Origin: a virus
Virus record (IMG/VR): IMGVR_UViG_3300033153_002030
Span: 1-49,171 of that record
Length of the DNA: 49,171 bases
Direction: 5' to 3' (one strand)
The position numbers and the translations under genes are program-made. Positions 33,104-49,171 of the stretch are shown piece after piece (the first letter of the stretch is position 1; each line of letters begins with the position of its first letter). The notes below the pieces were generated by a model. It had not been told where the DNA came from. It was given only the letters and a program-made list of their open reading frames with translations, and did not search any database.

Positions 33104-33286
33104 CTACTCCTCTTTTTGTTCATACGGTGTACGTGTTATCACCTCAAGCAATCTACCACTACCTTTACATGTATAACAAGTAGTTATACCAGTTACCTCA
33201 TATAGTCCTTGGTGATAATCAACCAATTCCTCGCGAGGCCATTTACCTTTACCATTACATTGGGTACATAATATTATCTCACTCAT
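33104..33286 (-). CDS. Small zinc-finger protein (DnaJ-type CxxCxGxG)
   Basis: A 60-residue protein with two knuckles CTQCNGKGK and CYTCKGSGR, the DnaJ-type zinc-binding repeat without any J domain. The ATG overlaps the TGA of the lipoprotein gene by 8 bases (ATGAGTGA). Such tiny proteins are frequent in phage early operons; they may bind DNA or fold a partner, but the partner is not known. Confidence 0.7.
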   Translation of the reverse strand: MSEIILCTQCNGKGKWPREELVDYHQGLYEVTGITTCYTCKGSGRLLEVITRTPYEQKEE

Positions 33287-35736: not shown

Positions 35737-36011
35737 TTATTCTCCTTCTTATCAAACCATGCATTAATTTGTTCCATCATATCTTCTATTCCTTTTGCTG
35801 TATTCCATCTAGATCCTGCGTGCCTTTGAAAGGCCCACTTATGAGACCAAGGACTATATACAAAATAAACACTTCTATGATGAAAACGTAGAAAGCCTCT
35901 CTTAAAAGGATGAGCAATTTTACCTAGCTTTTTAAATTTCTTAATGGCATTATTGGTGCGTTTCTTGTCTCCTTTTTCATAAGTAGTGCGTAGTTTATGA
36001 ATCGGTTTCAT
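35733..36011 (-). CDS. Small basic hypothetical protein
   Basis: A 92-residue protein from the ATG at 36011 (GGAG 9 bases ahead); an alternative ATG at 36029 adds six residues. The product is rich in Lys, Arg, Phe and His (MKPIHKLRTTYEKGDKKRTN, RGFLRFHHRSVYFVYSPWSH) and looks like a nucleic acid-binding or ribosome-associated small fold, but no family is recognised. It overlaps the previous gene and meets the RNR ATG at 35736. Confidence 0.6.
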   Translation of the reverse strand: MKPIHKLRTTYEKGDKKRTNNAIKKFKKLGKIAHPFKRGFLRFHHRSVYFVYSPWSHKWAFQRHAGSRWNTAKGIEDMMEQINAWFDKKENK

Positions 36012-36189
36012 CGTAGTGATCTCCGTCATTACCGTTCTGTGAAATGATATCTATACGACTCAACTTAATGGTATAGTAATTACATCTATCGTATCCGCTG
36101 CAAGGAAGATGGTTCAGTCCATTACGTAATCCTATGTTGTAACACTGATCTCCTTTATTGTGAATACATTTCTGATATCTTATTCCCAT
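35995..36189 (-). CDS. Small Cys-containing protein
   Basis: A 64-residue protein whose ATG overlaps the previous TAA (TAATG). It has four Cys spaced as C8, C16, C30, C36 (KCIHNKGDQCYNIG, PCSGYDRCNYY), a possible zinc or disulphide site. No family recognised. Its end overlaps the next gene by 17 bases. Confidence 0.6.
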   Translation of the reverse strand: MGIRYQKCIHNKGDQCYNIGLRNGLNHLPCSGYDRCNYYTIKLSRIDIISQNGNDGDHYDETDS

Positions 36190-36416
36190 TACCTTCCCTC
36201 ATAATAAGCTTTCTTCATAGACTTATACCAAGACCTACGACAAGACTTAGTTAGTTCTATTGTAGATGTCCTGATAGGTACGCTGATTGCTGGTCCCTCC
36301 GGACCTATATAAAGCTTAGGCCCTTCTTGAATATTGATTTCTTTATAAGCAGTGTCTGGTATACCAGGTATTTTGTAAGCTGCTTTTCTTAATTGTCTAG
36401 CCGATTGGCCTCTCAT
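36189..36416 (-). CDS. Small hypothetical protein, basic
   Basis: The ATG at 36416 fits the GAGGAGGG box better than the ATG six bases upstream, which touches the box. The 75-residue product (MRGQSARQLRKAAYKIPGIP) has a central EGPKLYIGPEGPAISVPI strand pair and a basic helical end. Function unknown. Confidence 0.6.
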   Translation of the reverse strand: MRGQSARQLRKAAYKIPGIPDTAYKEINIQEGPKLYIGPEGPAISVPIRTSTIELTKSCRRSWYKSMKKAYYEGR

Positions 36417-36670
36417 AACCATCCCTCCTCATCATCATCATCGTAATCCATAACAAACTGTGGGCTTTTCCAAGCACTGTCGAAGTCATCCATCTTGTCG
36501 AGCATCTGTGCTCTAAGATTACCTACGAGTCTAGCATCTCCAAATTTATCTCTATCTACATAGTCATAAGCAGTAGACTCAGATCTTCCTGGTTTGTTAA
36601 TCCAATAAAACTTCTTCTTAATCTCTAAGAAGACTGCCTTACTTTCAGTACTATATAAATCATAGTTCAT
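36413..36670 (-). CDS. Small acidic hypothetical protein
   Basis: An 85-residue protein (AAGGAG box) with an aromatic first half (FLEIKKKFYWINKPGRSEST) and a strongly acidic end (DYDDDDEEGWL). No family recognised. Acidic tails of this kind are common in ssDNA-binding or DNA-mimicking phage proteins, but there is no OB pattern here. Confidence 0.6.
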   Translation of the reverse strand: MNYDLYSTESKAVFLEIKKKFYWINKPGRSESTAYDYVDRDKFGDARLVGNLRAQMLDKMDDFDSAWKSPQFVMDYDDDDEEGWL

Positions 36671-36671
36671 A

Positions 36672-36881
36672 TTAAACTCCTTCGATCAGTTTCTCCAAGT
36701 TCTCTTTGATGCGTTTAGCTGTTACCTTCTCAGCACTGGCCTCATTAAGATCTTTAGTGGCCTTAGTTATACGACCAGTAGCTGACTCTTCATCCATTTC
36801 CTTAGATACAATCAACTTATCTAGGTCGTTAATAGTCTTAGTGAATCCTTTAACTACATTCTTAAGTGTTAGGTTAAACAT
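36672..36881 (-). CDS. Small coiled-coil protein
   Basis: The start is the ATG at 36881 with AGGAG 8 bases ahead; an upstream ATG at 36911 has no box. The 69-residue product (MFNLTLKNVVKGFTKTINDL) is a single heptad-rich helix pair with Lys/Glu pairs (KATKDLNEASAEKVTAKRI). Similar short coiled-coil proteins recur in podophage early regions, function unknown. Confidence 0.65.
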   Translation of the reverse strand: MFNLTLKNVVKGFTKTINDLDKLIVSKEMDEESATGRITKATKDLNEASAEKVTAKRIKENLEKLIEGV

Positions 36882-36979
36882 ATTATCTCCTATTATATTT
36901 ATTGTAGGCAATACTCAAGTGCGCAGGGAAGGATGCCAAAGCATTGTCCCCATACTTTCTAGAGCGTAACCTGCGCTCT
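36882..36979. promoter_or_regulatory. Non-coding gap with a perfect inverted repeat
   Basis: The only non-coding stretch near 100 bases in this part of the leftward arm. It holds AGAGCG/CGCTCT (36961-36979) with a 7-base loop directly after the stop of the 20-codon gene, and on the leftward strand a TTGAGT...TATAAT pair 15 bases apart (36918-36892) that is too close for a good promoter. The hairpin may be a terminator or an mRNA processing site. Confidence 0.45.
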
Positions 36980-37042
36980 TTAAATTAGTAGCAGTGTAAC
37001 TACTACAATTGTTATTAATGTTATTCTTTGTGCTTTACTCAT
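36980..37042 (-). CDS. Possible 20-residue membrane micropeptide
   Basis: ATG overlaps the TGA of the preceding gene (ATGA) and the frame ends in TAA just before a hairpin. The peptide MSKAQRITLITIVVVTLLLI is a short basic head followed by one uninterrupted hydrophobic helix. The stop/start overlap and the immediate hairpin suggest it is the last gene of a transcript segment. It is too short for homology assignment and could be chance. Confidence 0.4.
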   Translation of the reverse strand: MSKAQRITLITIVVVTLLLI

Positions 37043-37203
37043 TCTGATTCTATCGCCCATCTATGCATAGCACTCATAACTATCTCTTCAATATCCTTAA
37101 TCAATAAGTTCTTAGGCACATTGCATGGGTAGCCATCAGGTAACTGTGCTTCTAGTTCTTCATGTAGAATCTCTACGAACTGCGAGGCATTATTATTTGT
37201 CAT
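37039..37203 (-). CDS. Small acidic protein, 54 aa
   Basis: ATG at 37203 lies in the last codons of the upstream gene; stop TGA at 37039 overlaps the micropeptide ATG. Product MTNNNASQFVEILHEELEAQ continues with LPDGYPCNVPKNLLIKD and a helical IEEIVMSAMHRWAIESE end. The amphipathic composition and clean overlaps support a real gene. Family unknown. Confidence 0.65.
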   Translation of the reverse strand: MTNNNASQFVEILHEELEAQLPDGYPCNVPKNLLIKDIEEIVMSAMHRWAIESE

Positions 37204-37438
37204 TTTTCTTTGTTCTCCTAGATACTTTAGGTATTTTATAAGTAGCCGGAAGAGATATAGTTCTTGTCTCCACTGTTGGAATATAAAGTCTGTTTTTATT
37301 ATAGAGCCATTGCTTAGGATCTGCTACTATTCTGTATGCAGTTCTAAATGGTGGCCTATACACTGACACTAGCAAATTACCAGGGTACTTCTGGAGATGT
37401 GCAATCAATTGCTTAACTGTTAATCCTCCTCCAGACAT
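37193..37438 (-). CDS. Conserved small phage protein (MTVKQLI-type)
   Basis: An 81-residue protein with the motif LTVKQLIAHLQKYPGNLLVSVY at residues 6-27, common in small phage and prophage proteins that begin with this helix and a strand ending in VxVY. The tail is basic (KIPKVSRRTKKNDK). GAAGAG precedes the ATG at 7 bases. Function not known. Confidence 0.65.
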   Translation of the reverse strand: MSGGGLTVKQLIAHLQKYPGNLLVSVYRPPFRTAYRIVADPKQWLYNKNRLYIPTVETRTISLPATYKIPKVSRRTKKNDK

Positions 37439-37439
37439 A

Positions 37440-37670
37440 TTACTCTTCGGTTATCTCTATTGATTTAGTATGGTTGACGTTAATAATCACAGAAGGAAGC
37501 TCAGTATCACCTTTGTATAAAAGTAATAGGTTCTCTTCCTCTACACTAAAACCTATAGAGGTCACTCCTTTATAGCTCTTAGTGTGATACTCACCAGCAA
37601 AGCTGATGTCTATCTTATGAGGCTTAGCTAGCTCATGGCTAGTAATCTTGGTCACCTGATTCATAATCAT
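37440..37670 (-). CDS. Small hypothetical protein, 76 aa
   Basis: A beta-rich protein (KIDISFAGEYHTKSYKGV, VEEENLLLLYKGD) with AGGA just before the ATG at 37670; a second ATG at 37664 would suit the box spacing better. It overlaps the 57-codon gene upstream by 32 bases. No family recognised. Confidence 0.6.
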   Translation of the reverse strand: MIMNQVTKITSHELAKPHKIDISFAGEYHTKSYKGVTSIGFSVEEENLLLLYKGDTELPSVIINVNHTKSIEITEE

Positions 37671-37812
37671 TTTTCCTGTGCTTATTGCGTCTCTTGTACG
37701 CTTTCTTGTTATGCTCTACCTTATGGCCGAAAGGTAATTCTCTATCGAATAATGCCTTAGCATAAGGGTTACGTCTTTTAGTTTTACGGGACAAACCATG
37801 GCGGTGCGTCAT
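37639..37812 (-). CDS. Small basic protein (RNPYAKAL-type), 57 aa
   Basis: ATG at 37812 directly behind GAGGAAGAGG, frame to TAG at 37639. The product has KTKRRNPYAKALFDRELPFG and a Lys/Arg-rich second half. Small podophage proteins with an R-N-P-x-A-K-A-L core and the sense PFGxKVVxxKxxYxRKKKH are recurrent, so it is very probably genuine. It overlaps neighbours on both sides (29 and 32 bases) in other frames. Confidence 0.72.
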   Translation of the reverse strand: MTHRHGLSRKTKRRNPYAKALFDRELPFGHKVEHNKKAYKRRNKHRKNDYESGDQDY

Positions 37813-37975
37813 CCTCCTCTTCCTCTATGTCTGCGAATTTAATTCTGTTTAATTCAATGTAGTCACTCAAGTACTCCACCAAATCTTCAGTGGAAATACC
37901 TAAGATGTCTACCAGTTCATCAGGATCGTAGTTTTCTTTAATACGTTCCTTAAGTTCTTCTAGTAGTAATGGCAT
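37784..37975 (-). CDS. Conserved small early protein (YDPDELVDILG-type)
   Basis: The start is ATG at 37975, overlapping the TGA of the phosphoesterase gene by one base (TGATG), with AGGAG upstream. The 63-residue product contains RIKENYDPDELVDILGISTE, a motif seen in many small early proteins of podophages, followed by an acidic helical tail (ADIEEEEDDAPPWF). It may bind a host target; function is unknown. Confidence 0.68.
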   Translation of the reverse strand: MPLLLEELKERIKENYDPDELVDILGISTEDLVEYLSDYIELNRIKFADIEEEEDDAPPWFVP

Positions 37976-38757
37976 CAATACTCCTTGGCTAATCTGCCTA
38001 GTGACATTGTGTTGTAGTCAAAGCGATTAGGTGAGTACATATCCAACATAATCACTCCCCTCCAGTAGTCAGTCTTACTTCCTAAAGCATAGTCATCTAC
38101 ATGTTCAAAGAAACAACCAACGTTTAACGCTTGGTTGAAATGCTTAGCTCCATGTCTATGTTCACCATCAATCTTAAGCTCATGAGTATGTCCAAAGACT
38201 ACTGAATGTGCGTGCATCTGTAGACTTGTAGTCATAACACGCATACCTCCAGCAGGTTTGTTCATCTTGTTCATCGGTATATGAGTAAACCCTACTTCGT
38301 TAATGTAGTGGTATGATCTATAGGGGATGAACTTAAAGCCTCTTTCTTTAAGGCGGAGGGCAGCACGGTAATCCAAAGTGCCAATAAGCTCAGGATTATA
38401 ATCCAAATACCTACGTTCTCTCTCTTCATGATTTCCCTCTATGTAAATTAGCTCAGGTTTATACTGGGCTTTCTTGCTTCTCTTCTTAGTTTTATTGTAC
38501 GCATTCACTGGTCCGAACATAAGATCCAAGGCTTCATTACCTGCTGCAATCTCAGCGGCGTAGCGTAGTCCTTCCATCTTAGCTCTCTTGTCCCTGTCCC
38601 AGTTACTGAAACAGTGCATACTCAAGAAGTCACCTATCATCACTATGTGAGTAGGACGTTGTTCCAGTATATATTTACCTAAAGCTTCGAACCTACTTAA
38701 GTCTTGTGTGTCATCTACGTGACAATCTCCTACTACTAGGACTCTCTCTTTGCTCAT
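37975..38757 (-). CDS. Calcineurin-like metallophosphoesterase
   Basis: A 260-residue enzyme of the binuclear metallophosphoesterase fold. Visible motifs: GDCHVD (Asp11, His13, Asp15), IGDFLSMH, GNHEERERR near residue 111, and VFGHTHELK near residue 190. Length and motif spacing are typical of phage-borne members such as those in SIO1-like podoviruses. The substrate (nucleotide, RNA end or phosphoprotein) cannot be told from sequence. Overlaps the genes on both sides by 1-4 bases, so it is translated with them in the recombination/replication operon. Confidence 0.85.
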   Translation of the reverse strand: MSKERVLVVGDCHVDDTQDLSRFEALGKYILEQRPTHIVMIGDFLSMHCFSNWDRDKRAKMEGLRYAAEIAAGNEALDLMFGPVNAYNKTKKRSKKAQYKPELIYIEGNHEERERRYLDYNPELIGTLDYRAALRLKERGFKFIPYRSYHYINEVGFTHIPMNKMNKPAGGMRVMTTSLQMHAHSVVFGHTHELKIDGEHRHGAKHFNQALNVGCFFEHVDDYALGSKTDYWRGVIMLDMYSPNRFDYNTMSLGRLAKEY

Positions 38758-39146
38758 AGAAAATATCCTTTTGATTCAGTAGCGCCTAGCAATTCCTCTA
38801 TTGGAAGATCTGATCCTCCCATAGTTACAATAGGAGGAGATCCATAATATGAACCGGTTCCAGTAGTCCATGTAGAAGTAGGGTTAGATGATGATCCAGG
38901 TACCTGCGTATTTAGAAGTGAAAGCGATGCATCAACAGTAATTACTGTACACTCCACTCCATCTATCACATCCAGTATAATAAGAGGTACAAACCTAACA
39001 TCATAATAAGCTTGTCCAACAGCAGGCATTTGTTGTAACTGTTTAAAATATGACGCTGCCGCTTTGGCTATTGCTATTTGCACACCCACTTGCGTGTCAT
39101 TTGCATCCCTTCCTTCCACTACGTATTGTTCTTTTACTTGTATCAT
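38754..39146 (-). CDS. Hypothetical protein in the recombination block
   Basis: The start is the ATG at 39146, which overlaps the previous TGA (ATGA) and has GGAGG 9 bases ahead; an upstream ATG would be inside the neighbour without a box. The 130-residue product starts MIQVKEQYVVEGRDANDTQV; it has an Ala-rich helix, then VPLIILDVIDGVECTVITVD strands and a Gly/Ser/Thr-rich linker (PGSSSNPTSTWTTGTGSYYG) before a conserved-looking acidic tail (LPIEELLGATESKGYF). The composition is unlike its enzyme neighbours. No family recognised. Confidence 0.55.
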   Translation of the reverse strand: MIQVKEQYVVEGRDANDTQVGVQIAIAKAAASYFKQLQQMPAVGQAYYDVRFVPLIILDVIDGVECTVITVDASLSLLNTQVPGSSSNPTSTWTTGTGSYYGSPPIVTMGGSDLPIEELLGATESKGYFL

Positions 39147-39385
39147 TCGTCTTGGCCTCCGAAATATCCCTGTGTCCATAGCCACATCTTAAGATTCTCC
39201 ATTGCACCTATGAGTTTCATTCGTGACTCAAAGTCAGTATGTGCCATGAAAGTATCTTGTCCTTTCAATCCAATGATAAGAACATCATCTAGATCCATCT
39301 CACTTAGAGTCTGGAGTAGGTGTTCTTTATCATCTTCTAATACGCCAAACTTACCACGTACTACGTTGTCTTTTTTCTCACTCAT
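39143..39385 (-). CDS. Small hypothetical protein, 80 aa
   Basis: The start is the ATG at 39385 (GGAG box, 8-base overlap with the endonuclease stop, ATGAGTGA). The product MSEKKDNVVRGKFGVLEDDK contains HLLQTLSEMDLDDVLIIGLK and MKLIGAMENLKMWLWTQGYF. It looks like a small alpha/beta fold, possibly related to phage proteins that bind recombination enzymes; not recognised. Confidence 0.6.
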   Translation of the reverse strand: MSEKKDNVVRGKFGVLEDDKEHLLQTLSEMDLDDVLIIGLKGQDTFMAHTDFESRMKLIGAMENLKMWLWTQGYFGGQDE

Positions 39386-39872
39386 CTTTAGTCTCCTTCT
39401 CTTTAACATCGAGACCTAACTCTTCTATCCATTCATCTGGTATACTCTTGATGGCATATTTAAATCCATTCTTATCACACCAGTCTGTGTATCTAGACTT
39501 AGCTCCTTTGTACAACTTTTGATTGCTATAGAAAACAAATCTTATATCCAAATCTGGATGCTGTTGTCTTACGTCAAGGTGCTTACGTCTATCTTCACTG
39601 TCGAATAAACCTTTAGCTTCGATAACTATCTCTTTACCTTCAGCTCCTTTAAGAACAAAGTCGGGCTTGTACTTTCTGACCTGAGTATACTCTAATGTGA
39701 GTTTCTCGTACTCAGAAGGTACGCCCTTCTCTGTTATTTCATGTTGGATCTTAGCTTCGAAGTTACTTCTGAACTTGTGTATCTTCGATCTTGCGTATCG
39801 CTTGGCCTGATAAGTTTTTCTTGAGCCACTCTTCCGCCGTGATCCCTTGCTCTTTGATGTCCTCACTGACAT
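39378..39872 (-). CDS. Endonuclease I (T7 gp3-like Holliday junction resolvase)
   Basis: A 164-residue nuclease that cuts branched DNA and helps break down host DNA. The catalytic set of the T7 endonuclease I fold is visible: Glu39 in FRSNFEAKI, Asp71 in YKPDFVLKG, Glu85 and Lys87 in IVIEAKGLF, followed by DSEDRRKHLDVRQQHPDLDI and a KLYKGAKSRYTDWCDK end. A basic extension (residues 1-33) precedes the fold; its first 110 bases overlap the upstream gene in another frame. No better start is available nearer the fold. Works with the exonuclease and ssDNA-binding-like protein encoded just upstream in the operon. Confidence 0.87.
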   Translation of the reverse strand: MSVRTSKSKGSRRKSGSRKTYQAKRYARSKIHKFRSNFEAKIQHEITEKGVPSEYEKLTLEYTQVRKYKPDFVLKGAEGKEIVIEAKGLFDSEDRRKHLDVRQQHPDLDIRFVFYSNQKLYKGAKSRYTDWCDKNGFKYAIKSIPDEWIEELGLDVKEKETKDE

Positions 39873-40188
39873 ATGATAATGTTCTCGCTAGTTCGTTGTG
39901 TCTGCCTAGAGCATCGTCATAATTAGTGTATCGTTCCATATAAAGCTCGCTGTATTCCCCTTTGAAAAATAACATAGTCTCAAAGAGGACAGGTTCAATT
40001 GGTTCATAAGTAAAGCTATGATCCAATCCTAAGAATACAGTAGACAAGAACAGAACTCTATCCCCTAGTTCAATGTAATCTTTAGCTACTATTTTCTCAG
40101 GTGGGTGGGTTTCTAACCATTCAGCCCACTCTAATACTGTAGCAGTGTGGACTACATGGTCCTCGTCTATTGTATAATAATCACTCAT
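39763..40188 (-). CDS. Conserved phage protein (STVFLGLDHSF-type)
   Basis: A 141-residue protein with a very recognisable core found in many phages and prophages: a strand pair ending RVLFLSTVFLGLDHSF, then EPVLFETMLFFKGEY, MERYTNYDDALGRHNELART. The function is not known in any of them. GGAGG precedes the ATG. The last 110 bases are shared with the endonuclease I gene in another frame, encoding AEEWLKKNLSGQAIRKIEDT here. Confidence 0.68.
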   Translation of the reverse strand: MSDYYTIDEDHVVHTATVLEWAEWLETHPPEKIVAKDYIELGDRVLFLSTVFLGLDHSFTYEPIEPVLFETMLFFKGEYSELYMERYTNYDDALGRHNELARTLSYVSEDIKEQGITAEEWLKKNLSGQAIRKIEDTQVQK

Positions 40189-41071
40189 CTAATTGTACCT
40201 CCGGTACCTTAGGTTCTCTGGTGATGTTAGAAAAGTACACTGGCTTACCACTGTACACAAACATTCTCAAGCCTTTGCCTCCATTAGCATCAGTCCAACA
40301 AGTCTTCTTGTAGTCACAATAACTGCACTCCATAGGGAGACACATGTTACCTGACTTACCGAAAGGCTTATCTTCAAATGCTCTATGAGGAGGAGTAGGT
40401 GCTTCAAGGTGTTCAATGAAGTCTTCCCAGTCAGGCAAAGCTAAAGCTAAGTCTGTCTCATGAGGTTGGTGCAGTACTAGTGTACCATTCTGCTTGTCTA
40501 TCACTAAGAACCCTACGTCTTCGTGTTCTCCCTCATGAAAAGCATAGCCAGCCAGCTGTGATAAGTACCCGAAAGGATCATTACCTACTAGTGACTCTCC
40601 TTCAAACTTCTTGAAGGCATATGAACTGGCAGACTTGGCATCCACTACAGTTCCATCAATTTTAAAATCCATTCTACCACGTAGCTTCCAGCCATTAGGT
40701 AGTTCTATTTCACATGTCTTTTGTTCATCTGTTACCTCATGCCCTGCTGTTTTAATTAACAGGATAAGAAGTTCTTCTAGTATATCTCCGTATAAGAATT
40801 TGATTTTGTTGTGAGGTTGAAGCTTAGACCTAGGCATACCCTTTAGATTGTACCATAAGGAACGGGTGCAAGGTTTACCAAACTCACTGAAGTAAAGTAC
40901 CTTCTCCTTACGTACCTTAGTACGAGGAGTTAGTGCTCTGACCACAGCTTCCTTTACATTCTCACCAAATTGTTGGACAGCCGCCTCAGATATTTCGATT
41001 TCATTACCTGAGATGACATCATCCAATACTTCATAGATATCTTCAACTACAGTATTAACACTTTTAGTCAT
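40181..41071 (-). CDS. Cas4/RecB-like PD-(D/E)XK exonuclease with Fe-S cysteines
   Basis: A 296-residue nuclease. The PD-(D/E)XK core shows Asp135 (RGRMDFKIDG), Asp144-x-Lys146 (VVDAKSAS) and Gln172...Tyr176 (YLSQLAGYA). One Cys near the N-terminal end (Cys68, GKPCTRSLWY) plus a C-terminal cluster (Cys244, 249, 252, 258: MECSYCDYKKTC) is the pattern of the 4Fe-4S staple of Cas4 and AddB-type exonucleases. It is probably the phage recombination/degradation exonuclease in place of T7 gp6. GAGGT precedes the ATG; it is followed by two genes needed to resolve junctions. Confidence 0.85.
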   Translation of the reverse strand: MTKSVNTVVEDIYEVLDDVISGNEIEISEAAVQQFGENVKEAVVRALTPRTKVRKEKVLYFSEFGKPCTRSLWYNLKGMPRSKLQPHNKIKFLYGDILEELLILLIKTAGHEVTDEQKTCEIELPNGWKLRGRMDFKIDGTVVDAKSASSYAFKKFEGESLVGNDPFGYLSQLAGYAFHEGEHEDVGFLVIDKQNGTLVLHQPHETDLALALPDWEDFIEHLEAPTPPHRAFEDKPFGKSGNMCLPMECSYCDYKKTCWTDANGGKGLRMFVYSGKPVYFSNITREPKVPEVQLDE

Positions 41072-41087
41072 AGATACCTCTGTTTAC

Positions 41088-41582
41088 TTATGCTTCTGAC
41101 AAACCGCTGTCAGCTAGCTCACCATTCAGATACTTAGTAGCAATCTCAATATCTAGATCACCTGTAGTATACGCTTCGATACGTCTAGCTACATTGATTA
41201 CTGTATCAGTCAGGTCATCCTTGCCTAAGCCTTCCATTTGATCCTTAGTCATTGCCATAGCCAATACTTCACGAGCATTAGTCACAGCATTCTGACGTAT
41301 GATAGAACGTTGGCCGTCCTTTACATCAATAGGAAAACCACCACGAGAGTAGGCTTTAGGAGCTGCTCCAGCTGCTGCTGGGGCTGTACCTCCACCACTA
41401 CCTTCTTTACGGATAGCACCTTTAATATTCTTAAAGGCTCCCTTCTCTACGAACTCAAAGGATACTGTATCACCTCTGGCTACTCCACTAAAAGCATTAT
41501 AAGAGCTGTACCAAACATCGTCAATCATTAGACCTCTGCTGTCCTTACGTACTGCACCTACTACGCCACTTACATTTCCCAT
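41088..41582 (-). CDS. OB-fold ssDNA-binding-like protein
   Basis: A 164-residue protein. Residues 1-60 have an OB-like strand order with GMIDDVWYSSYNAFSG and GDTVSFEFVEKGAFKNIKGA; a Gly/Ala-rich linker follows, then GFPIDVKDGQRSIIRQNAV and an acidic C-terminal end. This resembles small phage proteins with an OB domain and the IxRQNAxTNA motif, some annotated as single-stranded DNA binding. AAGAGGAG box; it has its own consensus promoter at 41632-41660, which suits a protein needed in large amounts. Lies next to exonuclease and endonuclease I. ssDNA binding is inferred, not proved. Confidence 0.68.
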   Translation of the reverse strand: MGNVSGVVGAVRKDSRGLMIDDVWYSSYNAFSGVARGDTVSFEFVEKGAFKNIKGAIRKEGSGGGTAPAAAGAAPKAYSRGGFPIDVKDGQRSIIRQNAVTNAREVLAMAMTKDQMEGLGKDDLTDTVINVARRIEAYTTGDLDIEIATKYLNGELADSGLSEA

Positions 41583-41631
41583 ATAGATCTCCTCTTAGGG
41601 TTTGTTGTTAAAGTTCTCACTCTGTACTTAT

Positions 41632-41660
41632 AGTATATCACCATGTGTACAGAATGTCAA
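41632..41660 (-). promoter_or_regulatory. Leftward extended -10 promoter for the ssDNA-binding-like gene
   Basis: On the minus strand TTGACA (41660-41655), 17 bases, TATACT (41637-41632) with TGA directly before the -10 hexamer. It should start RNA near 41625, giving a 40-base leader before the SSB-like ATG at 41582 (AAGAGGAG box). The gap between genes here is 80 bases, wider than usual in this arm. Confidence 0.82.
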
Positions 41661-41663
41661 CAC

Positions 41664-41969
41664 TTATTTGAAATCTTTTTCAAATTCTTTTTCTACCATG
41701 TGAGTAGACACCCGTTTGATGTCTTCACTAGGTATACCTTTCTTTGTAATGTCATCATGAATACATGATGCATTAGTTCTATCTGTTTGTCTCCAGAAAT
41801 GAGTACCCATAACTGCTTTGCCTTTCATAACACCAGCGGCTGGGAGGTAATAGCCTACCATTCTGTCGTGCATGAAGTACATGGTAAACTTTGAAGTCTC
41901 CATCATCAGAGTCTTAGTGCCATAACCAGGCTGGGAATATGTTCTATACGATTTAATTTTAAGTGTCAC
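41664..41969 (-). CDS. Hypothetical protein between two promoters
   Basis: GTG at 41969 with AGGAG 7 bases ahead is the best start; the ATG at 41990 lies before this box. The 101-residue product has a strand-rich first half (LKIKSYRTYSQPGYGTKTLM) followed by GYYLPAAGVMKGKAVMG and a charged helix (EDIKRVSTHMVEKEFEKDF). No family recognised. It is flanked by the leftward promoter at 41632 on its 3' side and the rightward one at 41970 on its 5' side, an unusual place in this operon. Confidence 0.6.
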   Translation of the reverse strand: MTLKIKSYRTYSQPGYGTKTLMMETSKFTMYFMHDRMVGYYLPAAGVMKGKAVMGTHFWRQTDRTNASCIHDDITKKGIPSEDIKRVSTHMVEKEFEKDFK

Positions 41970-41998
41970 TTGACATCTCCTATTTTTCATGATATAAT
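41970..41998 (+). promoter_or_regulatory. Consensus rightward promoter, antisense to the replication genes
   Basis: TTGACA (41970-41975), 17 bases, TATAAT (41993-41998) with TGA directly before the -10 box. All nearby genes run leftward, so this promoter would make RNA antisense to the genes at 42030-44650 including DNA polymerase. A 9-bp dyad lies at the predicted start point. Perfect hexamers, perfect spacing and an extended -10 match the two other promoters of the window. Confidence 0.75.
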
Positions 41999-42000
41999 AA

Positions 42001-42022
42001 GTATGTCCCGTCAGGGATATAC
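42001..42022. promoter_or_regulatory. 9-bp dyad at the antisense start point (operator or terminator hairpin)
   Basis: GTATGTCCC, loop GTCA, GGGATATAC: eight exact pairs plus one G-U. Read rightward it forms a hairpin at the 5' end of the antisense RNA or an operator over its start site. Read leftward it stands 8 bases after the stop of the gene at 42030 and is followed by TTATTATAT, so it could also be an intrinsic terminator for the polymerase transcript. Confidence 0.6.
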
Positions 42023-42029
42023 AGTGTTG

Positions 42030-42314
42030 TTATTTATTCTTCTTCAGCATCTTTTTCTTATATGATGCATAAAAAGCTGCTGCATTGTGGGTAATAGGCA
42101 CAGCAATCGCAGCTTCCTGTTCTTCCTCGGCTTCCTTTGCGTGTTCTATAACACTAGTCTCAGGTACAAGGTACACCTTGACTGCATGATAACCTCTAGC
42201 TCTGCTCTGCTTTTCAGCATCTCTTCTCCTTGACCATACCCACTTCTGACCTGTTGCAACACTCGCTGGTTTTAATTCTCCATAAGAATCAATCATTCCA
42301 TACATCTCCTTCAT
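42030..42314 (-). CDS. Hypothetical protein, 94 aa
   Basis: A basic helical protein (MKEMYGMIDSYGELKPASVA, WSRRRDAEKQSRARGYHAV) with a central KVYLVPE strand, an Glu/Ala-rich helix and a basic end (YASYKKKMLKKNK). GAGGT box. The ATG overlaps the preceding TAA region by 4 bases. No family recognised. Confidence 0.6.
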   Translation of the reverse strand: MKEMYGMIDSYGELKPASVATGQKWVWSRRRDAEKQSRARGYHAVKVYLVPETSVIEHAKEAEEEQEAAIAVPITHNAAAFYASYKKKMLKKNK

Positions 42315-42613
42315 GTTAATACCTCTAATACTTTCATCTTATTAGCTAGTAACCAAATCCCACCTTGTGACTCAGGTCTTTCATAAAAAGTATAGTCCAA
42401 TACTTCGACCTTAGCCCACACCCTGCCCTTCTCAGACAGGTGAGGAGCTTTCTTTTCTAGAGTACAATGCCACCCTGTTCTAGGAGTATACCCTTTAGTT
42501 GGGTGTGACTCTGCATATAACCATTCATCTACAGCTATACGTTGTCTTCTATTTATAAATAAAGGTCCTAGCGTACCGTCCTTACGTAACTTAAATAATT
42601 TATAAGCTTCCAT
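42311..42613 (-). CDS. Conserved small phage protein (LGPLFINRRQR-type)
   Basis: A 100-residue protein with the recurring pattern AYKLFKLRKDGTLGPLFINR, HPTKGYTPRTGWHCT, KAPHLSEKGRVWAKVEV and a final YERPESQGGIWLLANKMKVL. Close relatives are found in many phages and prophages, where the protein stands beside replication genes; no function is established. AAGGAG box. Directly downstream of DNA polymerase, one base apart. Confidence 0.7.
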   Translation of the reverse strand: MEAYKLFKLRKDGTLGPLFINRRQRIAVDEWLYAESHPTKGYTPRTGWHCTLEKKAPHLSEKGRVWAKVEVLDYTFYERPESQGGIWLLANKMKVLEVLT

Positions 42614-44650
42614 TTAATCTCCTTGGTCCTTCCAGTTAGGGCCATAAGTAATGTCTACCTTCAAAGGTAAATCAAATTTAAAACCATATACTTCTTTAAG
42701 TATCTGTGGTGCATCTTCCATTATCTCTTGTATCATAGCAATAGCACCGCCTAATACATCCTCATGAACATCAAAAATAATTGAATCATGTACTGTATTA
42801 ATCATTAGGCACTTATCTCTAAGGATAGGATCTTCTTTCAAAGCTCTGAACAATTTACCTATAACAGTAGGTACTACATCACCAGTAGCAAACCCTTGTA
42901 CAGGATAGTTATTAGTTTGAGTAGGTGTGAAAGAAGTAAGTTTACCTGTAGCAGCTATCAACCAAGGGAATGAATCATTCTCTAGAAATACATACTCTCT
43001 ACCAGTTAAAGATTTATATACACCTCTACCTCTAGGTCTGCCCTTAGGAGTCTTAGTTTTATCTAGAACTCTAGACATCTTAACCTTAGTCATGACATCT
43101 TTATTCCACTCTTTAACTCCAGGATACCTATCGAAGAAGGCATCAATAATTGTCTTGGCTAATGAGGTAGGGATACCTGCATTCTTACCTAATGTTTTAG
43201 CGCCACCACCATATACTAAACCAAAGTTCACAGACTTAACGACGCGACGCTTCTCTTTATCTGTTAGATGAGAAGGAAGTAGATGCGCTACCTTGTTAAA
43301 GGTTTCATCGTGCATGTCTCTTCCATGCTTCAAGTCGTCAATAAGTTGACGGTCACCAGAGAGGAAAGCTAAAGCTATTACCTCAAGCTGTTTATAATCA
43401 GCCTCAAGTATAACACCTTCATCTCCCCATCTAGATACAAACATCGTCTTGACTTTAGACTTAGAACCAGTGCTTACATTCTGTAGGTTAGGTTCATTCT
43501 GACTTAGTCTTCCTGTATGAGTAGCAGTATGATTAATATTCTGATGTAGGAATCCATCGTCATGTATCAGGTTAGGTATTGATTCATAATAAGCACTAAG
43601 CTCCTTGCTCATTGCTCTCTTCTGCTGAATCAACTTACAGAACTTAGTTACATTATCAGTAGGGTGATGGTCAGCAATAATTGCTTTTAGTATCTCGTCA
43701 CTTGTCTTGTATACACCAGCGTTTTTAGTCTCCCATTCTTCTTCAGGATCTAAATCAAACCCAGGTCTTTCTATAACATGTTCGATTAACTTATACTTAT
43801 CGTTTCCATTCTTGTACTTACCGACCAATTCTTTTATCTTGTATTTGATCTCTCCTCCAAAGAGGAAGGCACTTAATTGCTTAGGCGAACCTAAGTCTAT
43901 ATAAGCCATATGCTCAGGGAGAATATATTGATCTATACCATACTCTACACCAGATAATTCACGTTGCAGAACAGCTTTGTTGTATTCTAATACATCCATG
44001 TCTACGGCCATACCATTCCATTCCATCTCCTGATAGCCCAATAGAGCCTCGTTCATTGAACGGATAAGGGGCAGCATACCTTTCTTCTTCGCTTCCTCTA
44101 GCTGTCCTAAGAAGACCTTGTGTGTGTTGTCTACGTCATACTTTAGGTACTCAGTGAGCATCTCCTCAGGTATATCAGGTGTATCTATTCCTGCTTGCCA
44201 GAAGGCTTTGATTCTATCGTCCTTAATAGTACCTCCATACTTCTCTGAACAATAATCCAGAGAGGGATAGAGTTTGTTCTGACCAGAAAGAATGTACTCA
44301 GCTAACTGGGTATCCCATACCTTTTGGGTAGCTAAGAAATCCTCAAAGGTAATCTCATCTATGGTTTTGCATACTCTACGCAACCAATGCAAATCAAATT
44401 TAATATTGTGACCTATGATTAGCGTAGTCTCAGACTCACCATCAGCAGACTTCATGACTATATCACTTGTGTCTTCAGTATAATATTTAGTTTGTATTTC
44501 TTGTGTCTGATGAGGATTACTGGATACAGGTTTAATACCTATTTGTACCATGTAATTATCTTGACAGAACGCCGATGCTTTATTCCTTCCTACTTTATTC
44601 CTTATCGTTGTCTCCGTGTCCAGCACTAGGTACTGCTTGTACTTTTTCAT
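42614..44650 (-). CDS. DNA polymerase, family A, with 3'-5' exonuclease
   Basis: A 678-residue replicative polymerase, close in length to T7 gp5 (704). Exonuclease motifs: Asp11/Glu13 (LDTETT), Asn82...Asp86 (GHNIKFDLHW), Tyr168...Asp172 (YLKYD). Polymerase motifs: A around residue 417 (EADYKQLEVIALAF), B around 475 (RRVVKSVNFGLVYGGG), C around 621 (NTVHDSIIFDV). Motif B carries Phe at the position equal to E. coli Pol I Phe762 (T7 has Tyr). GGAGG precedes the ATG. It is encoded between the helicase/primase block and the recombination block of the leftward operon; a thioredoxin-binding insertion could not be confirmed by eye. Confidence 0.94.
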   Translation of the reverse strand: MKKYKQYLVLDTETTIRNKVGRNKASAFCQDNYMVQIGIKPVSSNPHQTQEIQTKYYTEDTSDIVMKSADGESETTLIIGHNIKFDLHWLRRVCKTIDEITFEDFLATQKVWDTQLAEYILSGQNKLYPSLDYCSEKYGGTIKDDRIKAFWQAGIDTPDIPEEMLTEYLKYDVDNTHKVFLGQLEEAKKKGMLPLIRSMNEALLGYQEMEWNGMAVDMDVLEYNKAVLQRELSGVEYGIDQYILPEHMAYIDLGSPKQLSAFLFGGEIKYKIKELVGKYKNGNDKYKLIEHVIERPGFDLDPEEEWETKNAGVYKTSDEILKAIIADHHPTDNVTKFCKLIQQKRAMSKELSAYYESIPNLIHDDGFLHQNINHTATHTGRLSQNEPNLQNVSTGSKSKVKTMFVSRWGDEGVILEADYKQLEVIALAFLSGDRQLIDDLKHGRDMHDETFNKVAHLLPSHLTDKEKRRVVKSVNFGLVYGGGAKTLGKNAGIPTSLAKTIIDAFFDRYPGVKEWNKDVMTKVKMSRVLDKTKTPKGRPRGRGVYKSLTGREYVFLENDSFPWLIAATGKLTSFTPTQTNNYPVQGFATGDVVPTVIGKLFRALKEDPILRDKCLMINTVHDSIIFDVHEDVLGGAIAMIQEIMEDAPQILKEVYGFKFDLPLKVDITYGPNWKDQGD

Positions 44651-44771
44651 CTATGTGTGCCTCCATGAGTTTTCTATAATCACAATCTAATGCGTGGTAA
44701 CTCCATTCAGGAGTCTTAGTTAAGCAAGTACATGAACCAAATAAGGTAGGTGCTTCTTTAGCTTTACTCAT
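44595..44771 (-). CDS. Small Cys-containing protein, 58 aa, overlapping DNA polymerase
   Basis: ATG at 44771 overlaps the previous TAA (ATGAGTAA) and the frame runs to TAA at 44595, sharing 56 bases with the start of the polymerase gene in another frame. Product begins MSKAKEAPTLFGSCTCLTKT and contains SYHALDCDYRKLMEAH. Three Cys and a short helix. Without it the 113 bases upstream of the polymerase would be empty. No family recognised. Confidence 0.62.
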   Translation of the reverse strand: MSKAKEAPTLFGSCTCLTKTPEWSYHALDCDYRKLMEAHIDEKVQAVPSAGHGDNDKE

Positions 44772-44970
44772 TAAGGCTCTCCTTAATAATATCTATTCCA
44801 GGTGATTGATAAATACTAGTATCATCTTGCTTGTTAAACTCATATAAATTATCTATTAAGCCTACTTCCATAATACCCCTTAATTCCTGATGTCCTAAAG
44901 CAATGCCTAACATAAGCATTAAAGATGAATACTCTTCATTTGAGAGGACTAGTATTGTTTTATCAGCCAT
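44764..44970 (-). CDS. Small hypothetical protein, 68 aa
   Basis: The start is the ATG at 44970, which lies inside the end of the preceding gene (overlap AATGGCTGA) and begins MADKTILVLSNEEYSSLMLM; a longer frame upstream has no box. The product is helical with hydrophobic faces (LMLGIALGHQELRGIM) and an acidic end. Function unknown. Confidence 0.6.
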   Translation of the reverse strand: MADKTILVLSNEEYSSLMLMLGIALGHQELRGIMEVGLIDNLYEFNKQDDTSIYQSPGIDIIKESLNE

Positions 44971-45193
44971 TGGCTTTAGTATACTCATCGAGAGCATCTC
45001 TTGTCTGGTTAAGCGTGTCCATTCTCTCTGCTTCAGTGAAGTCATTAGGCATCATGAACATAACATACATGTCAGCTAACGCATCTCTCATCTTCCACAT
45101 AAGCTCAGCCTCTTTCATTGCCTCATCTACTGGCTCAGTAATCTCTCTTGAGTCAGCTAAAGGGTCACACATTTGTCCTTCTCTACCAGTCAT
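44963..45193 (-). CDS. Small acidic helical protein
   Basis: A 76-residue protein with GAGGAG box and the sequence MTGREGQMCDPLADSREITE, followed by a Met-rich helix (MWKMRDALADMYVMFMMPND) and an acidic tail. No domain recognised. Possibly a regulator or inhibitor of host proteins, as such small acidic proteins often are, but nothing in the sequence shows this. Confidence 0.6.
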   Translation of the reverse strand: MTGREGQMCDPLADSREITEPVDEAMKEAELMWKMRDALADMYVMFMMPNDFTEAERMDTLNQTRDALDEYTKANG

Positions 45194-45479
45194 CTTTATT
45201 CTCCTCTTTCTCTAAAGCCTTTTTAAAGGCACCTCTTCTACTAACTAAACACATTATCCATGTGTGATCTTTCACTCTGTTATTAATTAACTCATCAGAA
45301 TGTACATAATTCTTACCAATATGATCTTGATTAGGACTAGCTAATTCTAATACTATAAAACCCTTTTCATTCCTCAATAATATAATACAACTATTTAAGG
45401 GAGTAGGACTATTGTCACTCATCATAATAATATCACCAAGATGAACGTCAAAGGTTCCATTTAATCGTTCTAAATTCAT
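45183..45479 (-). CDS. Small hypothetical protein, 98 aa
   Basis: The ATG overlaps the helicase TAA (TAATG) with AAAGGA upstream. Product begins MNLERLNGTFDVHLGDIIMM; strands with ILLRNEKGFIVLELA and a basic-acidic end (KALEKEENKDDW). It may be an early regulator. No family recognised. Confidence 0.6.
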   Translation of the reverse strand: MNLERLNGTFDVHLGDIIMMSDNSPTPLNSCIILLRNEKGFIVLELASPNQDHIGKNYVHSDELINNRVKDHTWIMCLVSRRGAFKKALEKEENKDDW

Positions 45480-46798
45480 TACATTTGTCCTTTATATCTA
45501 GACACAGCTGGCATAATATCTACTTCCCAATAACCATGACGCTCACTTTCTAAAGAACGTACTCCACCAGGAAGTTTGTTCTTAGGTATGTGAATGTATC
45601 GTTTATTCTCATCCTCATCTTCGTGAGTCTTACCGATTGTGATAATCAAATCAGCTTCACCTTGCTTACCTACCTTAGAACCAGCTAACTGTTCCATTCG
45701 TATGTACTTCTGGTCAGCAGCAGAACCATTCACCTGAGTAGCAGTAATTACTGGGCCATACTTCTTAGCCCACTCTCTGCCTTGTTGATAAAGTTTTTGA
45801 ATACGTATGTCATCACGTTGTGAGTCTTCGAATCCTTTTACTTTATCTAAGATGTCAATAATAATTAGCTTAGGTTTAATTCTATCTAAGAAAGCATTGA
45901 GTTCCTTGATAGTAACATCAGGATCATTCATGACTCTGATACGATATTCTTTACCTAAAATTTTATCCATATTCTTACTGGCTTTAGCTCTGTCCATCAT
46001 GATAGTGCCTTGTGTAATACCACAAGCAGCCATAGCTAGACGTTCTCTTACACGCTTACCATACTGTTCATTGTTTATCCATACTACATAATCATCTGGA
46101 CCTAGTTGTGCTGCCATATATGTAGCCTCGCTTGCTAGGAAGGAGGTCTTTCCTGTCTCTACGTATGCTGCTAGCTCTACGAAGTCTCCTCTTCTTAAGG
46201 GGCCACATGATACGTTTAATTCTTCTAAACGCCATTCTAATCCATCTCCTGCTGTTGTATCATCTGCACATTCTTCGAGGTCATTAGTTACCTCCCTCTC
46301 ATCAATAGCATCTGCATCTAAGACTAGGGATGTACTGGTATCCTTTTCATAATCAGACAGGAGGGATGCTATGTCTTCCATAGCTACGTCCTTACCCTCT
46401 GCCCCTTGCATAGAGATGTCCATGATACGAGTGAAGTAATCGAGATTAATATAGGTAGCTACCAACTCATTCTCTAAGTCCATATAGGTAGCTACCAACT
46501 CATTCTCTAAGTCCGATGTACCTTCTTCTTCTGAGGTGTCCACTGTTACCTGCCACTTATCAAATATAAGTTGGTATGCTTCCATACGTTCAGGCTTCAT
46601 TGATACATGTCTAACATGTTTGAACCAAGTGCTGAACTCTTCGGGTGTAATCTCCTTATTTATATCTTTAAAATAAACTTGGAAATCAGAGAGGAGTTGC
46701 TTAATGTACTTGGATAGGGTATGATCTTTAATAAAAGGTTTGTACTTCTCAAAGTCTTCTGCATTACTTAATACTTTAAGTAATAGTGTATCATTCAT
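45479..46798 (-). CDS. Replicative DNA helicase, DnaB/T7 gp4-type
   Basis: A 439-residue RecA-fold helicase that should open the duplex for the polymerase. Walker A is AYVETGKTS near residue 213; Walker B is KLIIIDILDKVKG, followed by ITATQVNGSAADQ and ADLIITIGK with the KYIRMEQLAGSKVGKQGE loop. The primase function is carried by a separate gene upstream, unlike T7 where one protein has both. Near residue 95-117 an 11-residue segment (DLENELVATYM) is present twice in a row because of a perfect 33-bp DNA duplication. GGAG box before ATG. Confidence 0.86.
   Translation of the reverse strand: MNDTLLLKVLSNAEDFEKYKPFIKDHTLSKYIKQLLSDFQVYFKDINKEITPEEFSTWFKHVRHVSMKPERMEAYQLIFDKWQVTVDTSEEEGTSDLENELVATYMDLENELVATYINLDYFTRIMDISMQGAEGKDVAMEDIASLLSDYEKDTSTSLVLDADAIDEREVTNDLEECADDTTAGDGLEWRLEELNVSCGPLRRGDFVELAAYVETGKTSFLASEATYMAAQLGPDDYVVWINNEQYGKRVRERLAMAACGITQGTIMMDRAKASKNMDKILGKEYRIRVMNDPDVTIKELNAFLDRIKPKLIIIDILDKVKGFEDSQRDDIRIQKLYQQGREWAKKYGPVITATQVNGSAADQKYIRMEQLAGSKVGKQGEADLIITIGKTHEDEDENKRYIHIPKNKLPGGVRSLESERHGYWEVDIMPAVSRYKGQM
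46449..46514 (-). repeat. Perfect 33-bp tandem duplication, in frame
   Basis: Two identical adjacent 33-bp copies inside the helicase gene, encoding DLENELVATYM twice. Because the length is a multiple of three the frame survives. Identity is exact, so the event is recent or artificial, like the 14-, 43- and 8-bp duplications elsewhere in the window. Confidence 0.93.
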
Positions 46799-47167
46799 TT
46801 ACTTTCTCCTTCGTTGTTCTACGTTTCTTTCCTGTTCTATTGCTAAAGTATCACAGCCACACAAGGGACAGATAGGTGTGTTACCTACCCAATCTTGTAT
46901 CATATCTTTATACACTGTACTATAGCATTGCCTACATTTAAGCTCAGTATATTTACTTATACGTGTTCTGTTGTTCTTAGTTAAACGTAAATTATATAAA
47001 GATAAATCACTTCTAACATTACTAATATGTAAGTGTGAATATTTTCTATAAGTATAATTATTAGTTGCAATCATAGTAGACATACCCATATTACGAGATA
47101 GCTTACGGTCTTTTATATCTTCCGTACAGCTGAGGCTCATTGCCATAACTTTTCTTTTACGTCCCAT
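46799..47167 (-). CDS. Zinc-ribbon protein between helicase and primase
   Basis: A 122-residue basic protein starting MGRKRKVMAMSLSC, with one four-Cys ribbon near the end (CRQCYSTVY and CPLCGCDTL). The ATG lies inside the end of the primase gene (overlap 11 bases). The basic middle (TKNNRTRISKY) and ribbon suggest DNA or RNA binding, possibly loading or priming. No named family. Confidence 0.65.
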   Translation of the reverse strand: MGRKRKVMAMSLSCTEDIKDRKLSRNMGMSTMIATNNYTYRKYSHLHISNVRSDLSLYNLRLTKNNRTRISKYTELKCRQCYSTVYKDMIQDWVGNTPICPLCGCDTLAIEQERNVEQRRRK

Positions 47168-47990
47168 AGTCTGACAATACCTCTCTTAATTTGTCTCGTC
47201 CGTATTCTTTAGGATCTACTCCATTAGAGTGGTGTATCTTAACATCATTCATCAAGCATTTCAATTCTTTGTACAGTCTGAGTTGCATCTTCCTTACTGT
47301 AGGATTGTCATCATCTAAAAAGATAACGGCTTGGTCGAAACCATTAGCAATCTCTAACACTTGTTTGTCGTTAAACGATACTCCCATAGAACAAAGACTA
47401 GGTATGTATTCACCTACCCTTATAGCACTGAGTACGTCCTCTACTATTACTACTGTCTTGCCGTGCCTCGCTCCTGAATAAAAGAGATGAGTCTTTATCT
47501 CACCACTAACATTCAAGTATTTCATTGGGTCAGGATTAATAGCCCTGCCTTGCCAAAATACGAGCTTATTATCACTATCGTAGACAGGAATAATAACGCG
47601 GCCATAACCTGGAGACCATCTAAATCCATACTTATCTATCTCCTCGTCGGTTAGTCTTGCTTTAAATAACCAGACCTTTGCTTTGGCTGGCCAATTTTCA
47701 AATTCCTTGGTAGCGTCACTAGGCAACTGCAACTCCCCTGCTTTATTAGTCTTGTTGCTTTTACAGAGGAGACTAGAGAGTGGGCGTTGGAACTTTCTAT
47801 CCTTGTAGAATCCATTACGCTGGCAGTTATGACAATGCGCAGCTACGCTACCGTCTTCGTTACGTCTAATCCATAGTCTAGCCTTGTGATCCACACCATT
47901 GTCACAATCTTGATGTGCAACTACAACTGAAGATTCTAAATCATCAGGTGCAAATGGTACGTAATCGTTATAGGGCAGTCGGTTAGACAT
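47157..47990 (-). CDS. DNA primase with zinc finger and TOPRIM domain
   Basis: A 277-residue primase, the stand-alone form of the T7 gp4 primase half. The zinc site is Cys29, His35, Cys53 and Cys56 (HQDCDNGVDH, HCHNCQRNG). The TOPRIM core shows VVIVEDVLSAIRVGEY (Glu) and AVIFLDDDNPTVRK (Asp-x-Asp). The stretch GYGRVIIPVYDSDNKLVFWQ is the usual RNA polymerase-domain strand before TOPRIM. AAGGAA precedes the ATG by 9 bases. It is encoded upstream of the zinc-ribbon and helicase genes in one operon. Confidence 0.88.
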   Translation of the reverse strand: MSNRLPYNDYVPFAPDDLESSVVVAHQDCDNGVDHKARLWIRRNEDGSVAAHCHNCQRNGFYKDRKFQRPLSSLLCKSNKTNKAGELQLPSDATKEFENWPAKAKVWLFKARLTDEEIDKYGFRWSPGYGRVIIPVYDSDNKLVFWQGRAINPDPMKYLNVSGEIKTHLFYSGARHGKTVVIVEDVLSAIRVGEYIPSLCSMGVSFNDKQVLEIANGFDQAVIFLDDDNPTVRKMQLRLYKELKCLMNDVKIHHSNGVDPKEYGRDKLREVLSDYGT

Positions 47991-48004
47991 AACTCATATT
48001 CCTT

Positions 48005-48229
48005 TTATTTTTTACTTTTATGTTCAAATAATGCAGTTAATAATTTAAATAACATATCTTCTCCTGTTACAAAAGTATAGTTGCTCTTCAGAAAATTATC
48101 TAGCTCACTCCCATGTAAGGCACCATCTCTAAGTCCACAACCATCAATGATAATGTTTTTGAGTACACCATCCTCTAAATAAACAATTAGAAACTCATCG
48201 TACTCGGCTTTATATATACCTAATTCCAT
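48005..48229 (-). CDS. Small hypothetical protein, 74 aa
   Basis: ATG overlaps the previous TAA (TAATG). The product is beta-rich in its first half (MELGIYKAEYDEFLIVYLED, IIIDGCGLRDG) and helical at the end (LLTALFEHKSKK). No domain recognised. Early operon position. Confidence 0.6.
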   Translation of the reverse strand: MELGIYKAEYDEFLIVYLEDGVLKNIIIDGCGLRDGALHGSELDNFLKSNYTFVTGEDMLFKLLTALFEHKSKK

Positions 48230-48429
48230 TAGTGTTTACCGAATAAAGCCCACATAATATATGGCACTGCTATGAACCACACAATACTTAAAGCCACTAA
48301 AATTACATACTCTTTAAATAATTGCCACATACCACCAGAGTAATAACCTTTACTGATAATAGAATCTTGCAGCAGAAAGAAAGCTCCGAAGCCACCAGCT
48401 CCCCATAGAATAAAAAGTAAAAGTTCCAT
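48229..48429 (-). CDS. Small membrane protein, two helices
   Basis: A 66-residue protein with AGGAG box and two membrane segments (MELLLFILWGAGGFGAFFLL and YVILVALSIVWFIAVPYIMW) around a short polar loop. Made early by position, so it is unlikely to be the lysis holin; it could act on the host membrane, for instance in exclusion. Not recognised as a named family. Confidence 0.65.
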   Translation of the reverse strand: MELLLFILWGAGGFGAFFLLQDSIISKGYYSGGMWQLFKEYVILVALSIVWFIAVPYIMWALFGKH

Positions 48430-48734
48430 TAGCTACTCTCCTTCGCTGTCTCTGTATTAATAACACTAAAATTAGCTAACGCATTTTCTATAGCTTCTTC
48501 GCCTTCATGTTGCTTAGCAAATACAGCCCTAAGTATAGCGTCTGCATCTAATTCTGCTATAGCGTTAGCATTAACGTACTTAGCAGCCTTAGCATTTATA
48601 AGTGACCCGCTTGTAACTGAGATAGGTGAGTTTTCTTTCTCAGATTTTAAAGTACACAACCTTAAATTATCACCTGACAATACAGGCATGACAATTTCAC
48701 CGTTGTTCATTAAATAACATTTACCCATCCACAT
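48429..48734 (-). CDS. Hypothetical protein, 101 aa
   Basis: The ATG at 48734 has AGGAG 9 bases ahead; an ATG 9 bases upstream abuts that box. Product MWMGKCYLMNNGEIVMPVLS with an Ala-rich helix (INAKAAKYVNANAIAELDAD). It overlaps the zinc-ribbon gene upstream by 14 bases. Function unknown. Confidence 0.6.
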   Translation of the reverse strand: MWMGKCYLMNNGEIVMPVLSGDNLRLCTLKSEKENSPISVTSGSLINAKAAKYVNANAIAELDADAILRAVFAKQHEGEEAIENALANFSVINTETAKESS

Positions 48735-48906
48735 CGTGTTCATCTCCTATACTCATTAACGTATCAATAGCAGCTTGATCCTCTTCCGTTATACCGAATA
48801 CTAATCTTCTGCATTTCAAACACAACTCCTCATGTTGATGCAACTCTGGCCTCCAGATAATTTCGTTATCCTTTAATGGGGCATCACAACTCTTGCATCT
48901 ACTCAT
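48721..48906 (-). CDS. Small zinc-ribbon protein
   Basis: A 61-residue protein with GGAG box and two Cys pairs, CKSCDAPLK and CLKCRRLVF, separated by 24 residues with EIIWRPELHQH between. Such treble-clef or ribbon modules occur in phage regulators that contact RNA polymerase or DNA. The acidic C-terminal half is helical. Function not known. Confidence 0.65.
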   Translation of the reverse strand: MSRCKSCDAPLKDNEIIWRPELHQHEELCLKCRRLVFGITEEDQAAIDTLMSIGDEHDVDG

Positions 48907-48924
48907 TACTTCTCCTTTATCTAT

Positions 48925-49161
48925 TTAACTTCCCGTTAGATCTATACCATATGTACGTATATCAGTCACGAACATATTAAATGCATCTCTACTCATACTT
49001 ACCCTTATGTTGGCAGTAGTAGCAACTGTCTTAATTAAATCAAGTATTGCCTTAGATTCTTTTAGTCCATCTCCTGTAGCAGCCCTATAACATTTAATAG
49101 CAGCTATAACGTTAGCATTTAATATAATTGTATTATCTACAGTAAGACTAATCATAGTCAT
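48925..49161 (-). CDS. Ribosomal L7/L12 C-terminal-like small protein
   Basis: A 78-residue protein, the last gene at the right edge. The centre (VIAAIKCYRAATGDGLKESK) closely resembles the L7/L12 C-terminal domain, which has a KxxVIKxVRxxTGLGLKEAK helix-turn-helix. The rest forms strands with SMSRDAFNMFV. The ATG at 49161 or 49155 can serve; the frame stays open to the window edge, so a longer N-terminus is possible. Similar short L7/L12-like proteins are found in a few phages and bacteria, function unknown. Confidence 0.6.
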   Translation of the reverse strand: MTMISLTVDNTIILNANVIAAIKCYRAATGDGLKESKAILDLIKTVATTANIRVSMSRDAFNMFVTDIRTYGIDLTGS

Positions 49162-49171
49162 AGCGTCACTG

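Follow-up and report, generated by a model that had tools for sequence, protein, structure and literature searches.

In bacteriophage lambda, the promoter pO lies in the gap after the stop of its target gene and points against the early operon, and its product OOP, a short RNA ending at a terminator of its own, targets a regulator of lysogeny. The placement of pO/OOP against cII, with the promoter just past the gene's stop and facing back over the gene, has been described (PMC12197685). Cis-antisense RNAs without open reading frames (ORFs) have also been reported in the virulent phage PAK_P3 (PMC4933390) and in the T7-like phage LUZ100 (PMC10134795, which also cites LIT1 and LUZ7), where they were detected by RNA-seq or cappable sequencing (PMC4933390, PMC10134795). 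Here, we describe a candidate of this type in the virus record IMGVR_UViG_3300033153_002030, of which the whole 49,171-nucleotide stretch analyzed (positions 1 to 49,171) is called the window. The element in question is a perfect sigma-70 promoter at 41970-41998 on the + strand, which is directed against a leftward operon and carries a dyad at its predicted start point.

Like lambda pO, the window promoter lies in the gap after its putative target's stop and faces a leftward operon. Unlike the case of OOP, no terminator or lysogeny gene was seen for the window RNA, and its putative target is an ORFan. The window RNA resembles those of PAK_P3 and LUZ100 in being cis-antisense and free of ORFs by prediction. 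Those RNAs, however, lie mainly against structural genes, whereas the window RNA, as yet only predicted, would lie against genes of the replication block.

Antisense promoter and dyad

The promoter TTGACATCTCCTATTTTTCATGATATAAT (41970-41998, +) agrees with the sigma-70 consensus at 12 of 12 positions. It consists of the -35 hexamer TTGACA (41970-41975), a 17-bp spacer, and the extended -10 element TGATATAAT (41990-41998) of the form TGnTATAAT, and the predicted +1 is G42005. A sequence-only reading of the window had claimed TTGACA-17-TATAAT with an extended -10 rightward from 41970, and this proved exact. In a scan of 30500-49171, the site ranked first among 38 promoter-like sites. The number of 12/12 promoters expected by chance was 0.15 per window when spacers of 15-19 bp were allowed. 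In a Markov-1 simulation, the value was ~0.017 per window for a spacer of 17 bp and ~0.003 when TG was also required, the last figure reflecting one hit across 300 windows simulated with matching dinucleotide composition. Together with the dyad, the promoter fills the 60-bp gap (41970-42029) between two leftward genes, in which the promoter scan found no leftward promoter-like site. The adjoining leftward gene, 41664-41969, has its Shine-Dalgarno (SD) sequence AGGAG at 41981-41977 and its start codon GTG at 41969; the -35 hexamer sits between the two, and TTGACA is the complement of the spacer TGTCAA there. These results support a real-looking sigma-70 promoter pointed against the leftward operon.

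The dyad GTATGTCCC-GTCA-GGGATATAC occupies 42001-42022 (+) as an exact 9-4-9 repeat, and the canonical +1, G42005, falls inside its left arm, in agreement with the earlier claim of a dyad at the predicted start. Folded as a rightward RNA, the 22 nt reached -12.7 kcal/mol with all nine pairs formed, one of them G.U, and none of 200 shuffles equalled this fold. Folded as a leftward RNA, an A.C mismatch left a 4-bp core and -7.5 kcal/mol. An RNA starting at G42005 would keep the inner five pairs only, GUCCC-GUCA-GGGAU, and the full dyad exists solely as DNA; the inner part (42005-42018) would thus be a 5'-terminal hairpin whose stem begins at +1, given the canonical start. In a 1992 study listed in PMC3997798, Emory, Bouvet and Belasco reportedly found that 5'-terminal stem-loops stabilize bacterial RNA, as in ompA and papA. 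Like these, the window hairpin would lie at the extreme 5' end with no unpaired tail, but the known cases belong to mRNA leaders, whereas the window RNA carries no gene. The dyad is present once in the window, and no Rfam hit pointed to a known RNA family. The 22-bp motif was found in seven other viral contigs, in unrelated contexts and with no such promoter in the flanks read. Of the roles suggested earlier for the dyad, the 5'-terminal RNA hairpin is the best-supported reading; the rightward RNA pairs fully and the leftward RNA does not.

The same geometry recurs in other viruses. We scanned 2.9 million viral contigs for a perfect extended promoter with TCCC..GGGA near the start, which yielded 71 viral loci in 28 distinct clusters. 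The distance from TATAAT to TCCC was exactly 7 nt in 11 of the 28 clusters, the same as in the window, and every other spacing occurred in at most four; a 7-nt spacing puts +1 on the base directly before UCCC. Because this spacing recurs, the dyad fits the 5'-terminal hairpin of strong phage transcripts. A start codon with a ribosome site was present within ~220 nt downstream in 19 of the 28 clusters, where a leader RNA would thus begin with the dyad. A control search with a non-complementary partner returned 15 loci, 13 shared with the 71 and 2 of its own. Since the comparison was designed after the window had been viewed, it supports the geometry, not a function.

Contigs with a perfect extended sigma-70 promoter and a UCCC-loop-GGGA stem at 7 nt (L107, L108, L109, L120, L128, L133, L135, L164, L173, and others) are apparently unrelated to each other and often show short leaders ahead of a ribosome site. 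Separately, L113, L116, L121, L122, and L123 form a repeated viral leader family, in which TTGACAACTAGTATAAATACTGATATAAT is combined with a TCCC/GGGA hairpin and a conserved GGTGCTCCACCTACCTTAGGAGC or GGTGGAACCTGGTCCTACCGAG, and the gene starts ~140-190 nt further on. This leader is possibly a conserved RNA element.

The predicted RNA and its putative target

The putative antisense RNA (42005-42449, +, with a provisional 3' end) would span all of gene 42030-42314. As in OOP-like cis-antisense RNAs, the promoter (41970-41998, +) is opposed to its target (42030-42314, -) and lies 3' of it, and no protein appears to be encoded: no ORF of at least 30 codons led by a ribosome site lies downstream of the promoter in the window. 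The tiny membrane peptide proposed earlier, MSRQGYTVLLFILLQHLFLI, was rejected as a leaderless product. Its ATG at 42003 precedes the predicted +1 and has no SD sequence, and its 20-codon frame is the in-register complement of the codons for ...YKKKMLKKNK* of gene 42030-42314 (AAA/AAG read as TTT/CTT). The Leu and Phe content of the frame is due to this complementarity to a Lys-rich C terminus. A replication-origin primer was also rejected, as the GC skew merely tracks gene direction and turns at ~31 kb, with no signal at 42 kb.

We consider it somewhat more probable than an even chance that sigma-70 transcription of the locus yields a noncoding antisense RNA that begins with a hairpin and would act on gene 42030-42314 the way OOP, made from pO, acts in lambda. 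The strong host-type extended -10 promoter in the 60-bp gap would start a rightward noncoding RNA at G42005, and the first bases of this RNA would fold without an unpaired 5' tail and be protected from decay that depends on the 5' end. The RNA would be complementary first to the 3' end and then to the whole of gene 42030-42314, and two effects would lower the expression of this gene, namely RNA pairing and head-on encounters with polymerases that travel leftward. The promoter sequence and its orientation, the dyad, the lack of a gene downstream, and the recurrence of the promoter-hairpin geometry in other phages are shown, whereas production of the RNA, its length, and its regulatory role are what we infer; since a 5' hairpin with no free tail is a known stabilizer, we propose that the antisense RNA is stable and affects gene 42030-42314 first.

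Several observations weigh against this explanation. Among polymerase-bearing loci of relatives, 26 strong extended promoters share the direction of the operon and 2 oppose it (a few sites being counted twice where loci overlap), and no counterpart of the antisense promoter was found in relatives that have retained the replication genes. The polymerases of these relatives are ~40% identical or less, and no relatives of the ORFans 41664 and 42030 were found. Promoters of the relatives mostly lack a 5' hairpin: 19 unselected promoters showed no general hairpin excess (median z 0.25), and the hairpin therefore belongs to a subset of promoters. The promoter of L001 at 2589 is a striking exception among the relatives and carries one. 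In addition, the hairpin pattern was picked after the window had been viewed, which makes the 71 loci a selection, and the dyad reaches 4 bp upstream of +1, which is superfluous for an RNA hairpin. Finally, terminator scans downstream of the promoter found no good terminator and weak sites only, the nearest at 42428-42457.

The earlier proposal had the RNA run antisense to 42030-44650 and possibly shut down the replication genes, including DNA polymerase. Its first part stands insofar as the neighboring genes 42030-42314, 42311-42613, and 42614-44650 all run leftward, but the reach to the polymerase is unsupported. Because the terminator candidates are all weak, the polymerase claim is unwarranted; we saw no sign of an RNA long enough, and the lack of a counterpart in relatives that keep these genes also speaks against the shutdown.

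Surrounding genes and sister promoters

The operon opposed by the promoter contains, all on the - strand, a family A DNA polymerase (42614-44650; PHROG match, 1e-115), a gene matching phrog_12224 of unknown function (42311-42613), the putative first target of the RNA, an ORFan of 94 aa with a Lys-rich tail (42030-42314), a second ORFan (41664-41969; GTG start at 41969, an ATG at 41990 being possible but without an SD sequence), and a gene in the SSB position (41088-41582). Searches found no homologues of the two ORFans and no phage record nearly identical to the window; no end repeats were found in the virus record, which is possibly incomplete. In the relative L023, the polymerase is followed by one 70-aa gene and then SSB, without gaps and without a promoter, and for this reason 41583-42613 looks like an accessory insertion.

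Two sister promoters run with their genes. The first (41660-41632, -), TTGACA-17-TGATATACT, matches the consensus at 11 of 12 positions plus TG and precedes the SSB-position gene 41088-41582. An inverted repeat, CTGTAC..GTACAG, surrounds its -10 element (41620-41660) and is a possible operator. The second (8300-8328, +), with 12/12 plus TG and a 17-bp spacer, precedes gene 8416-8970 in the structural block. Gene 41664-41969 is thus bracketed exactly by two outward-facing promoters, 41970-41998 (+) and 41660-41632 (-), and the antisense promoter stands alone, 310 bp from the latter.

Distant relatives repeatedly carry a strong extended sigma-70 promoter after the DNA polymerase or ahead of the SSB-position gene, with TTGACA-16/17-TGnTATAAT or one base off (ICP2, MW202615, and L007). 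In ICP2 (NC_015158), a promoter of this make is annotated at the polymerase end (42631-42659); MW202615 has a perfect one directly before SSB (49245-49272, -), and L007/G004 has three, one of which follows the polymerase (L007 3968-3996). The window version of this recurrent promoter is likely 41660-41632 (-). The antisense promoter is of the same make as those of ICP2, MW202615, and L007 but points the opposite way.

Some features of other loci were recorded alongside. In L053, a perfect extended promoter with a 16-bp spacer (356-383, -) is intergenic, points against its operon, and has a TCCC..GGGA dyad near its start. At L001 2589-2700, a strong promoter is followed by two stable hairpins (AGCAGTTG..CAACTGCT, and GGAGTTGG..CCAACTCC with a T-rich tail) and then by an ORF; this may be a small RNA gene. 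The gap that follows ORF 4036-4473 of L007 contains, at 4565-4650, a sequence resembling tmRNA or tRNA ends (GGGGGTGATAGGTATCGACAG ... GGGAGTTCGATTCTCCCCACCTCCACCA); ARAGORN calls no gene there.

Competing readings and meaning

The alternative that survives best, though we regard it as unlikely, is that genes 41664, 42030, and 42311 form an accessory cassette inserted between polymerase and SSB and that the promoter is its outward-facing one, active but yielding a non-regulatory by-product or insulating neighboring units by collision. The exact bracketing of gene 41664-41969, the gapless and promoterless order in L023, and the fact that two of the three cassette genes are ORFans are consistent with it. 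The sense promoter between polymerase and SSB, however, is also present in phages without the cassette genes and need not belong to a cassette, and an idle perfect promoter with a matched hairpin would, we infer, be costly.

A repressor site over the start point is a common arrangement, and the dyad may instead be an operator over the +1 of an active promoter, where a bound repressor would turn the antisense RNA on or off in the course of infection. This is scarcely less likely than the cassette. As DNA, the dyad spans -4 to +18 and the RNA does not include its outer left arm, GTAT, as expected of an operator. On the other hand, positions 5/18 are not symmetric as DNA yet pair as G.U in RNA, the dyad occurs once in the window whereas operators usually recur, and at the seven viral loci with the 22-bp motif the surroundings are unrelated and the flanks read contain no such promoter. 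No repressor domain was found in the 25 proteins of the leftward region scanned against Pfam, with many ORFans remaining and the record possibly incomplete.

More doubtful is a broader proposal that phages generally have a stock part for long-lived RNAs, a perfect extended sigma-70 promoter whose +1 carries a (G/A)UCCC-loop-GGGA stem. Here the part would be aimed at the replication block of the phage itself, giving a long antisense RNA to time when expression of the polymerase and accessory genes ends. We consider it very unlikely that the perfect promoter is a chance product, on the opposite strand, of TGTCAA, the spacer of a leftward ribosome site, and an AT-rich gap. The complementarity of TTGACA to the SD-GTG spacer of gene 41664 and the lack of a counterpart in relatives would agree with this, but only ~0.003 such sites are expected per window, and the dyad at the matching distance is not yet counted in that figure. 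The weakest reading, a role of the dyad as terminator or processing hairpin in the leftward operon, is highly improbable: the T-rich stretch TTATTATAT follows the dyad in the leftward direction with a moderate tail score, but the mismatched leftward fold described above is weak, and with no leftward promoter between the dyad and gene 41664 in the scan, a terminator would silence that gene.

The antisense RNA acting on gene 42030-42314 would be of a type already known in phages, and we regard the locus as a neat rather than a revolutionary case. Antisense RNAs of virulent phages have seldom been predicted from sequence alone, and the promoter-hairpin geometry that the window has in common with other phages offers a simple rule by which strong transcripts of phages can be searched for.
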